64,000 nt of DNA from an uncultured Pseudomonadota bacterium (GTDB taxonomy: Bacteria; Myxococcota_A; UBA796; SXON01). The notes below the pieces were generated by a model. It saw only the letters and a program-made list of their open reading frames with translations. It was not told the origin of the DNA and searched no databases. The DNA is taken from the NCBI GenBank assembly GCA_903875225.1, contig CAIQVJ010000048.1, positions 62,001 to 126,000 of the forward strand, read 5' to 3'. The position numbers and the translations under genes are program-made. Positions 5,093 through 63,249 of this stretch are shown here, piece after piece (positions within the stretch are counted from its first letter, which is position 1; the number at the start of each line of letters is the position of its first letter).

Positions 5093-5992
5093 TCAGGGAG
5101 CGACGCCCATCGCCGCGAGCACGCAGGCGGCCAGCGTCTCGACCTTGTAGCCGCCCTCGAGCACGAACACGACGGGCACCCGGCTCTCCTGCGCCCAGGC
5201 GCGCACCAGCGAGGCCATGCGCGCAAAACCCTGCGGCGTGACCCACATGCCGGCGAGCGGATCGCCTCGCTGCGCATCGAAGCCCGCCGAGACGAGGAGC
5301 AGGTTCGGGCGGAGTCGGTCGAGCGCCGGGAGCGCCACCTCCTCGATCACACGAGCGTAGTCCGCGTCGTCTGATCCCGAGGGGAGCGGGATGTTCACGA
5401 TGTTGTCGTGGTCGCCCTGCTCCTCCGCCGTACCTGTCTCGGGGTAGAGCGGATACTGGTGGATCGAGAGGTATCCCGCGTCGGGCTCTCCCCAGAGGAT
5501 GTCCTGCGTGCCGTCGCCGTGATGCACATCCCAGTCCAGCACGGCGACGCGCCGCCCGGGTGCGCCCGCGAGGAAGTGCAGCGCCGCGATCGCGACGTTG
5601 TTGAACACACAGAAGCCCTGCGAGAGCGCCCGCGTGGCATGGTGACCCGGCGGGCGGACGAGCGCCCACACCTCCTCACCCGTCGAGACGGCCCGGTCGG
5701 TCGCCTCGATCGCACCGCCCGCAGCCCACAGGGCGGCCTCGATCGAGCGTGGGCTGATCGGCACCTCGACCCCGGCGAGCCCCGCGCGGCCCGAGAGCGC
5801 CAGCACGCGCGCGACGTGCTCCGGGCTGTGCGCCCGCTCCAGTTCGGCCACGGTCGCAGGGGCGGCGACGTGCGTCCACGGCACGTGCGCAGCCCCGAGC
5901 GCCGCGAGGATGTTGCGCAGTCGCTGGGCACACTCGGGATGGTCCGGTCCGGTGTCGTGCTCGAGGAAGATCGGATGCGAGAGGATCACCAC
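5093..5992 (-). CDS. Histone deacetylase family protein (class II-like amidohydrolase)
   Basis: HPECAQRL, RPPGHHA, GFCVFNNVAIAA, LDWDVHHGDGTQDI, LLLVSAGFDAQRGDPL. Confidence 0.93.
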   Translation of the reverse strand: MVILSHPIFLEHDTGPDHPECAQRLRNILAALGAAHVPWTHVAAPATVAELERAHSPEHVARVLALSGRAGLAGVEVPISPRSIEAALWAAGGAIEATDRAVSTGEEVWALVRPPGHHATRALSQGFCVFNNVAIAALHFLAGAPGRRVAVLDWDVHHGDGTQDILWGEPDAGYLSIHQYPLYPETGTAEEQGDHDNIVNIPLPSGSDDADYARVIEEVALPALDRLRPNLLLVSAGFDAQRGDPLAGMWVTPQGFARMASLVRAWAQESRVPVVFVLEGGYKVETLAACVLAAMGVAP

Positions 5993-6519
5993 CCGAGCAC
6001 CTCGCGAACCCGGGCGTCCACGCCCAGCGCCGTGACGTGGTGCAGCGGCGCGCCACCACGATGCAGCATGCCCTCGATGAGCACGTGTACGTGCAACTGG
6101 CGCCAGGGGTCACTCGACCGGATGCCGTCGGCCTCCACGGGGAAGGCCCCCCAGGGCAGGAGCCAGACAGCGTCGTAGCGAGCAGGATCGAGCACCTCCC
6201 GGAAGACTCGCGCGGTGTCGTCGTCGCCCTTCGCAAACCCGTAGTAGACCCAGAACGCCGCGATGTCGAACGAGCAGCGGTCCACGACGAAGCCGCCATG
6301 GCTCTGCAACGCGCGCGCCTCGGCAAGCACCTGCGCATCCCACAACTCCAGGATCAACGCCCGTAGCCCGGACTCACCGAGCGTGTGGATGTCGGCCCCT
6401 GGCCTCTCCAGCCATTCCCGCATGCCCTCGGGCACGTACGGAAGGCCCGTCTCCGCCGCGAGCCGCCGCCCCAGCGTCGTCTTCCCCGTTCCGGCCGATC
6501 CCGACAACGCGAGCTTCAC
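5986..6519 (-). CDS. P-loop NTPase / NadR-like AAA ATPase
   Basis: GTG start at 6519 overlapping the upstream stop; Walker A GSAGTGKTT. Confidence 0.75.
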   Translation of the reverse strand: MKLALSGSAGTGKTTLGRRLAAETGLPYVPEGMREWLERPGADIHTLGESGLRALILELWDAQVLAEARALQSHGGFVVDRCSFDIAAFWVYYGFAKGDDDTARVFREVLDPARYDAVWLLPWGAFPVEADGIRSSDPWRQLHVHVLIEGMLHRGGAPLHHVTALGVDARVREVLGW

Positions 6520-7421
6520 GCTACCTTCTTTCCACACACGGCGCACTTCGCCTTGTCGCCGCGGTACACCGACGTCTTGGCCTTGTGGCAGCCCTGATGG
6601 AAGTGCTGGCCGCACCCGAACCCACACTCCACCCGCACCTGCTGCTCCACCCCGAGCCCGCAGATCCCGCAGCTCACCACCGCCGCCACCTGGGTCTGCG
6701 CCGTCGCGTCCACCTGCTTCGACGTGGGGAGCGGCTCCACCCCGCCCCACCAGGCGAGCCAGCCGATGAGCACGCCGATCATCCCGAGCACGATCCCCGG
6801 TGAACCGAGCCAGTACATCTCCAGCGCCGGCATGCCCGCGAACACGATCGGCGCGGCGATCGCGACGACGGAGAGGAACATCTGGAACACGAGCGCCGTG
6901 ACAGCGATGCGGAGCTGCGTCCCGCGGCCGCCCCAGGCGTGGCGGGCGAGCGAGGTGCAGAACAGCCCCAGCGCGAGACCCGGGAGCGACGTGACCCACA
7001 AGCTCTGCGAGGTCCCCAGCGCCGCGCCCCACAACACCGCCCACACCACCACGAGCAGCAGGGCGCCGAACAGGGCGCCGAGCCCGGCCCCGGCGTACCC
7101 ATGGTTGACCGGGTACTCGGGCTCCTGCTCCAGCACCCCGCTCCCCGCCGGCGGCTCTGGCAGCAGGTAGACGAGCTCCCCGTTGATCACGCCGAGATCG
7201 GAGAGTTTCTCGTCGTCGCGCATCAACCGGCCACGAGCGCGCAACCAGTACAAGCGCCGCCGCCCGTCTGTCCAGAACGCGTCGAGCCCGGCGTCCCGCG
7301 CCACACGCTGCGTGAGGTCACGCGCCGGAAGGTAGGTGGGCACCTGCAGGTCGAGCGTGAACGACTTCATCGCGATGACCTGCACCCGGAGGTTCACGAC
7401 GGTGGATTCGGCTTCGGACAC
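6516..7421 (-). CDS. Ubiquitin-like (YukD/EsaB-type beta-grasp?) N-terminal domain + 4 TM helices + C-terminal RING-like zinc finger
   Basis: N-term FTLDLQVPTYLPARDLTQRVARDAGLD...RGRLMRDDEKLSDLGVINGELVYLLPEPP is Ub-like; C-term CGICGLGVEQQVRVECGFGCGQHFHQGCH...CAVCGKK has paired CxxC and C-x2-H-x-H-x2-C. Confidence 0.65.
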   Translation of the reverse strand: MSEAESTVVNLRVQVIAMKSFTLDLQVPTYLPARDLTQRVARDAGLDAFWTDGRRRLYWLRARGRLMRDDEKLSDLGVINGELVYLLPEPPAGSGVLEQEPEYPVNHGYAGAGLGALFGALLLVVVWAVLWGAALGTSQSLWVTSLPGLALGLFCTSLARHAWGGRGTQLRIAVTALVFQMFLSVVAIAAPIVFAGMPALEMYWLGSPGIVLGMIGVLIGWLAWWGGVEPLPTSKQVDATAQTQVAAVVSCGICGLGVEQQVRVECGFGCGQHFHQGCHKAKTSVYRGDKAKCAVCGKKVA

Positions 7422-61971: not shown

Positions 61972-63249
61972 TTGTCATCACGGATCCCTGGCTTTTTCAA
62001 GCTGACGCCGCTGGAGCGCCGCGCATCTGCGCTCGCTGCAGTTGGCGTACAGCATCGTCCCGGAGCGTGGGAGGGCCTCGATCTGAGCGTCGCAGACGCG
62101 ATGATCGAGAACGTCGTGGGGGTCTTCGGACTGCCGAACGGAGTAGCCGTCAACTTGCTGCTCAACGGCGTGGACCGGCTGGTCCCCATGGTCGTCGAAG
62201 AGCCGAGCGTCGTCGCCGCGGTCTCGAACATGTCCAGGCTCACACGCGCCGCGGGCGGCCTGCACGCGGAGTGTGATCCGAGCGTGATGATCGGGCAGGT
62301 TCAGGTCTCCAACCCCGCCCCAGGTGCCGCCGAGCGGCTGCGGGACGCGATCCCGATGCTGTCCACCATCGCGGTGACCGTGCACCCCCAGCTGGCCGCG
62401 TTCGGCGGGGGGCTGCGCGGCATGGAGGTGCGCGAGCTCCTGTACGACGAGCCGGGCGAGGAGCCCGAGGACATCCTCGTGCTGCACTTCTTCCTCGACT
62501 GCGCAGACGCGATGGGCGCCAACATGGTGAACACCATCGCCGAGCGGCTGATGCCCGAGGTGGTTGCGATCACCGGCGGACGCGCTGGGCTTCGGATCCT
62601 GTCGAATCTTGCGGACCGTCGCCTCGTCCGCGCCCACGTCACCATCCCGTTTGCGCTGCTGGACGAGCCCACAGCCGGCCCCGAGCCGGAGGTCCCCGGC
62701 TCGGAAGTGGCAGCCGGCATCGCCGCCGCCTGGCGGTTCGCCTGGGTGGACCCCTACCGGGCGGCGACGCACAACAAGGGGGTGATGAACGGCATCGACG
62801 CCGTGGCGCTCGCGACCGGCAACGACTGGCGCGCGATCGAGGCAGGCGCCCACGCCTGGGCGGCGCGCGATGGCCAGTACCGGCCGCTCTCCACCTGGAA
62901 GGTGCGCGACGGCTCGCTGATCGGCAGGATCGAGCTCCCGATGCAGGTCGGCACCGTCGGGGGGCCGATCAAGGTGCACCCTACGGTGCAGCAGAACCAC
63001 GCGCTGGCGCAGATCTCCGGGGCGAGAGACCTCGCGATGCTGCATGCGGCCGTCGGCCTGGTGCAGAACCTCGGAGCGCTGCGGGCGCTGGCCCGAGAGG
63101 GCATCCAGCAGGGCCACATGCGTATGCACGCCCGAACCATCGCGCTGGAGGCGGGCGCTTCGGGTGAAGCCATCGGCCGCGTCGTCTCCGGGCTGGTGGC
63201 TCGCGGAGAGTTCACGGTCCAGGCTGCTCGGGAGATCCTGGGGAGGTAG
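61972..63249 (+). CDS. mvaA: Hydroxymethylglutaryl-CoA reductase, class II (degradative-type)
   Basis: IPGFFKLTPLERR; MIENVVGVFGLPNGVAVNLLLNG; EEPSVVAAVSNMSRL; DAMGANMVNTIAE; TVGGPIKVHPTVQQN. Confidence 0.93.
   Translation: MSSRIPGFFKLTPLERRASALAAVGVQHRPGAWEGLDLSVADAMIENVVGVFGLPNGVAVNLLLNGVDRLVPMVVEEPSVVAAVSNMSRLTRAAGGLHAECDPSVMIGQVQVSNPAPGAAERLRDAIPMLSTIAVTVHPQLAAFGGGLRGMEVRELLYDEPGEEPEDILVLHFFLDCADAMGANMVNTIAERLMPEVVAITGGRAGLRILSNLADRRLVRAHVTIPFALLDEPTAGPEPEVPGSEVAAGIAAAWRFAWVDPYRAATHNKGVMNGIDAVALATGNDWRAIEAGAHAWAARDGQYRPLSTWKVRDGSLIGRIELPMQVGTVGGPIKVHPTVQQNHALAQISGARDLAMLHAAVGLVQNLGALRALAREGIQQGHMRMHARTIALEAGASGEAIGRVVSGLVARGEFTVQAAREILGR

Follow-up and report, generated by a model that had tools for sequence, protein, structure and literature searches.

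The window analysed here, a stretch of 64,000 nucleotides (positions 62,001 to 126,000 of contig CAIQVJ010000048.1, assembly GCA_903875225.1) from an uncultured bacterium placed in the Myxococcota (GTDB lineage Myxococcota_A; UBA796; SXON01), carries a gene whose product joins an N-terminal ubiquitin-like (Ubl) domain, four transmembrane (TM) helices and a C-terminal zinc finger. In most genera of the order this Ubl-4TM-finger gene closes the operon of a contractile injection system (CIS). The link between the gene and the CIS is strong, and we somewhat favour the view that its product is an inner-membrane accessory protein or adaptor which docks or triggers an intracellular CIS.

Architecture of the Ubl-4TM-finger protein

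A preliminary description, made from the nucleotide sequence alone, had proposed that a Ubl domain, four TM segments and a zinc finger are combined in one bacterial protein. This was borne out by Pfam searches, AlphaFold modelling, Foldseek comparison and the conservation of the zinc ligands. The gene lies on the minus strand and has the following parts:

6516-7421, minus strand: Ubl-4TM-finger gene, 301 amino acids, GTG start; open frame, homolog in 58 of the 63 genomes of the order, purifying selection
7164-7388, minus strand: YukD-type ubiquitin-like beta-grasp domain, residues 12-86; PF08817 (2e-7), AlphaFold, Foldseek matches to EccD and ubiquitin, hhalign match to the free Ubl of the sister-family genome G065
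6747-7082, minus strand: four TM helices, about residues 114-225; AlphaFold helices, hydropathy and charges, hhalign match to the sister TM-finger protein
6680-6746, minus strand: variable stretch linking TM4 to the zinc finger, about residues 226-247; low pLDDT, fastest-evolving segment
6519-6680, minus strand: C-terminal C4HC3 cross-brace zinc finger (RING/PHD-like), residues 248-301; invariant ligands, domain model with pLDDT 84.5, weak PHD and RING fold matches
6534-6671 (span), minus strand: zinc-ligand codons of the finger, from the ligand positions

The whole protein matched the Pfam family YukD (PF08817) with E=2.4e-6 and the isolated N-terminus with 2e-7; the match exceeded the curated cut-off and was present in all of the first 30 homologs. 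In the AlphaFold model of the whole protein (mean pLDDT 74) a beta-grasp fold was followed by four long helices at residues 113-136, 140-161, 168-194 and 198-224. The best PDB matches of this model in Foldseek were EccD of ESX-3 and ESX-5, followed by ubiquitin, ISG15 and SUMO; structure prediction and fold comparison thus agreed with the beta-grasp Ubl that had been suggested for the N-terminus. The domain runs on into the TM region and, being internal, has neither a free C-terminal glycine nor a free C-terminus that could be conjugated.

By hydropathy and charges the Ubl precedes TM1, a single short loop bearing R and H follows TM2 and the finger comes behind TM4. Because there are four helices, both ends of the protein should lie on one side of the membrane. 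By the positive-inside rule, the positive loop after TM2 would put the Ubl and the zinc finger in the cytoplasm.

The eight zinc ligands (C251, C254, C266, C270, H275, C278, C293 and C296, counting the start residue as 1) form the motif C-x2-C-x11-C-x3-C-x4-H-x2-C-x14-C-x2-C and were invariant both in the 30 homologs and in a diverse set of 34. The finger had been labelled RING-H2-like; the eight-ligand cross-brace with conserved ligands stands, but the RING-H2 assignment does not, since the ligands come in the order C4HC3, spaced as in a PHD finger, whereas the order in RING-H2 would be C3H2C3. Pfam models of RING and PHD domains matched below cut-off only. In a fold search with a separate model of the finger domain (pLDDT 84.5) PHD fingers came first (E=0.06), followed by the RINGs of RNF4, RNF165 and Doa10 (E 0.16-0.25), and no structure reached E 0.001. 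The domain is probably a cross-brace finger of a RING/PHD-like kind, the hidden Markov models and the fold search matching both types weakly.

Among homologs dN/dS was approximately 0.02-0.06 in the Ubl, 0.06-0.13 in the zinc finger and 0.17-0.42 in the linker. Because homologs are conserved and dN/dS is low in the Ubl and the finger, a chance origin of the reading frame is excluded. A viral origin was rejected, as no relative was found in IMG/VR contigs.

Linkage to the CIS operon

The genomes compared were mostly metagenome-assembled. Outside the order, whose members nearly all carry the gene (see above), there was a single weak match, in G065. Named records from the clade were mostly metagenome-assembled genomes of Myxococcales, Myxococcota, 'Deltaproteobacteria' or proteobacteria. 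Four records (L051, L055, L057 and L074) bear the GenBank titles Bifidobacterium breve or Klebsiella pneumoniae, yet contain a gene of the Myxococcota type, an apparent mislabelling.

When the open reading frames around 46 homologs were clustered, a conserved gene order emerged: c8 > c5 > c6 > c4 > c1 > c3 > c2 > Ubl-4TM-finger gene. Pfam identified c5 as CIS_tube with LysM (CIS_tube 5e-28), c6 as a GPD hub (5e-14), c4 as gp25 (2e-26), c1 as baseplate J (8e-10) and c3 as Tail_P2_I (1e-13), while c2 matched the N-terminal part of the CIS13 family (2e-14). At 31 of the 46 loci the gene immediately preceding the Ubl-4TM-finger gene, in the same orientation, was the CIS13-like one, and the intervals mostly measured -25 to +35 bp. 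At six loci from another genus the closest conserved neighbour upstream was gp25. In the divergent order member G046 a gene for a Ubl, a TM region and a reduced finger occupied the same place in the operon. The best solved match of the baseplate J protein was the CIS baseplate of Streptomyces coelicolor (PDB 9gtp, E=5e-38; PMC12237407).

The Ubl-4TM-finger gene and a close CIS13-like gene occurred together in 56 of the 63 genomes of the order, a co-occurrence that is confounded by common ancestry. The exceptions were three fragmented assemblies (G019, G041 and G043), one genome from which both genes were absent (G026) and the genomes with a divergent CIS.

The window genome (G000) has a CIS of its own: sheath, tube and hub genes lie on contig C105, baseplate J (71% identical) on C28, and tail I together with a CIS13-like gene on C35. 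On these contigs (L119, L165 and L118, respectively) the CIS genes are dispersed, in contrast to the single operon of most related genera.

A split cassette in sister families

In four genomes from two other families of the class (G063, G066, G068 and G065) the CIS operon continues past the CIS13-like gene with a cassette of separate genes for an E1, a TM protein that ends in a finger, a free Ubl and an E2:

L112:3320-6437, L113:3394-6537, L114:2297-5413 and L115:6667-9744, all minus strand: E1, TM-finger, Ubl and E2 genes in CIS operons of the two other families
L112:3992-4282, L113:4095-4388, L151:4355-4681 and L152:2193-2480: free Ubl, 95-98% conserved, with a glycine-less tail ...LVMEHIPA and a length fitting mature ubiquitin

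In Pfam the E1 matched ThiF (4e-39 to 5e-36), the Ubl matched YukD (approximately 1e-6) and the E2 matched UQ_con (2e-7, at best 9e-8), with an HPN motif and a downstream Cys. No JAB gene was seen beside the cassette in these CIS operons. It is possible that a Ubl is conjugated to a CIS in these families.

The free Ubl of G065 was 41% identical to the Ubl of the window protein (hhalign probability 95.5), and over the 4-TM region the sister TM-finger protein aligned with the window protein at a probability of 94.5 (E=7e-8). As the Ubl and the 4-TM part each align to a sister protein, the window protein looks like a Ubl and a TM-finger protein joined. Profile comparison gave no alignment of the order's zinc fingers with those of the main sister family.

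Within the f7 family the Ubl was 95-98% identical to the first sequence, the TM-finger protein 54-73%. The f7 Ubl ends without the usual GG, in the invariant tail given above. The f7 TM-finger protein keeps Cys at ligands 3, 4, 7 and 8 and the first Cys, most of the other site being gone, a pattern which fits a cross-brace finger that has lost one of its sites. In G065 the Ubl frame (L115:7212-7260) ends ...PRPRRGGRADRCR, with RRGG near the C-terminus, which may be a processing site or a chance product of GC-rich sequence.

Proposed role and alternative explanations

In the CIS of Streptomyces coelicolor the membrane protein CisA (SCO4242) has a cytoplasmic N-terminus that is predicted to bind Cis11 (PMC12237407). 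Like cisA, genes of the window type encode a membrane protein just after the CIS baseplate genes. A membrane dock or trigger is the simplest reading of the window protein, since its gene has the same genomic position as that of CisA, the baseplate protein is of the related Cis11 type and two cytoplasmic binding modules are predicted. The Ubl and the finger may both attach to the baseplate of the CIS, the subunit concerned probably being baseplate-J/Cis11 or the CIS13-like one; such binding would dock the cytoplasmic particle at the membrane, license firing, or both, as CisA does for the Streptomyces CIS. The protein may have originated from a ubiquitin-like cassette (Ubl, TM-zinc-finger protein, E1 and E2), which still occupies the same operon position in the sister families. 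Fusion of the Ubl to the TM-zinc-finger protein would have taken place in the window's order, with E1 and E2 lost or never acquired, and the fused Ubl would serve as a built-in binding module and not as a modifier. The direction from split to fused is a suggestion, drawn from the presence of E1 and E2 in the sister families and not from a phylogeny.

Several points weigh against docking or triggering. CisA differs from the window protein in having one TM segment, an N-terminus that is disordered and, at the C-terminus, a solute-binding-like domain in place of the Ubl, four TM helices and zinc finger, and no homology between the two was seen. The window genus is the only one, among those with an informative contig, in which the Ubl-4TM-finger gene stands apart from the CIS genes. 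Two sister-family genomes (G067 and G070) carry the cassette without adjacent CIS genes, so its function may extend beyond CIS; at these loci (L150:12272-15479 and L153:3-890, the latter with the E1 start only) the neighbours are genes for ABC transporters or type II/IV secretion ATPases. Moreover, assembly or self-protection would suit a conserved accessory gene just as well. A factor for CIS assembly or quality control, or for protection of the producer, is the alternative that we take most seriously, although we consider it rather unlikely. It would draw on the same operon evidence, and Ubl domains are often assembly adaptors: TAPI, a Ubl encoded in the tail-assembly clusters of lambdoid phages, is not in the mature tail (PMC1779556). 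However, four conserved TM helices and a CisA-like place after the baseplate genes suit docking at the membrane better.

The part that the protein might play in conjugation had been left open, no E1, E2 or JAB gene being present in the window. An active membrane E3, whose finger would recruit an E2 charged with free Ubl and modify the CIS or other substrates while E1 and E2 are encoded elsewhere, seems improbable to us. It would be in keeping with the sister-family operons, where E1, E2, Ubl and TM-zinc-finger protein are encoded together, and with the retention of all eight ligands here, better than in the E1/E2-bearing relatives. Two independent models, however, found no E2 in the window genome (approximately 95% complete; statements of absence refer to this genome and its relatives), nor in any other genome of the order except G003, which has a single separate system. 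The search for a cassette-type E1 in the window genome was likewise negative, yielding only a sulphur-carrier-type ThiF and weak ThiF-like matches. The best ThiF and the JAB gene adjoin genes for a synthase resembling CysM and for a Ubl-like sulphur carrier whose C-terminus reads GGAS; by analogy with known systems this CysM/JAB/CysO/MoeZ-type cluster would be a sulphur pathway. Other weak E2 matches in the phylum had none of the CIS query genes adjacent. With an internal Ubl and an E2 search that came out negative, conjugation is unlikely in the window genome, and it was rejected there. The C4HC3 ligand order and the weak fold matches to RINGs also speak against an E3. Conjugation genes do stand in the CIS operons, but in those of the sister families.

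The preliminary description had further considered a membrane-anchored signalling or secretion protein of the Ubl/RING kind. A membrane-anchored Ubl with a treble-clef finger and an association with secretion hold good, the system concerned being the CIS and not type VII. A role like that of EccD, as part of a type VII secretion system, had in its favour the YukD match and EccD as top match in Foldseek: EccD too begins with a YukD-type Ubl that is followed by TM helices. EccD, however, has 11-12 TM segments and belongs to an ESX locus, whereas the window protein has four and a finger, its relatives stand in CIS operons, no WXG100 gene was found in the window genome and CIS genes were the conserved neighbours across the 46 loci. 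Type VII secretion is unlikely in this genome and was rejected; this explanation is largely refuted. Hardly more credit can be given to a pathway separate from the CIS, in which the protein would be the partner of the AAA_28 kinase-like and histone-deacetylase-like genes that follow it. The 4-nt overlap reported earlier with the downstream P-loop (AAA_28) gene was confirmed from the coordinates (5986-6519 against 6516-7421), and the two genes (5093-6519) are co-oriented with the Ubl-4TM-finger gene in head-to-tail overlaps. This arrangement is kept only within the genus; in every other genus examined CIS genes stand there instead. The suggested link to the P-loop NTPase did not survive this comparison, and the partnership was rejected.

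The Ubl-4TM-finger family is a candidate membrane adaptor for a whole order of Myxococcota, and would connect ubiquitin-like chemistry with a phage-tail machine, in its assembly or its firing. A wider idea, that some CIS are under dedicated ubiquitin-like control, with E1, E2, Ubl and finger modifying the CIS in one lineage and a fused, conjugation-free form controlling it in the window's order, is offered tentatively. The split and fused forms share an operon position and provide a natural comparison of conjugated and non-conjugated Ubl function. The literature searched contained no paper describing a Ubl cassette within CIS operons, priority not having been fully checked. What appears new is a CIS with a ubiquitin-derived membrane module; Ubl-TM fusions and Ubl genes in tail clusters were already known. 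According to a 2026 hot-spring study Roseiflexus is without close cisA homologs (PMC12998442).

Tail-associated Ubls differ from the present case in several respects. TAPI/TAPK is similar in that a Ubl is encoded within a tail gene cluster (PMC1779556), but there the Ubl is ThiS/MoaD-like, has a glycine at its C-terminus and is paired with a JAB protein, in clusters of non-contractile tails and without a membrane part. The Bil antiphage system conjugates a Ubl to phage tail fibres (Hor et al. 2024, as cited in PMC12948488) and also ties ubiquitin-like conjugation to phage-tail proteins; as described there Bil attacks incoming phage, whereas the sister cassette sits in the CIS operon of the cell itself. 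Bacterial E1-E2-JAB-RING-YukD operons share with the window gene a YukD Ubl, a RING-like finger and membrane proteins, but the window gene is a fusion of Ubl, TM region and finger without an E2 partner. An operon of this kind occurs in G003, a member of the window's own genus, where it is separate from any CIS and encodes a YukD-type Ubl, an E1, a JAB protein, an FHA-TM protein, a Prok-RING_1 finger and an E2-TPR protein (L149:9952-15752).
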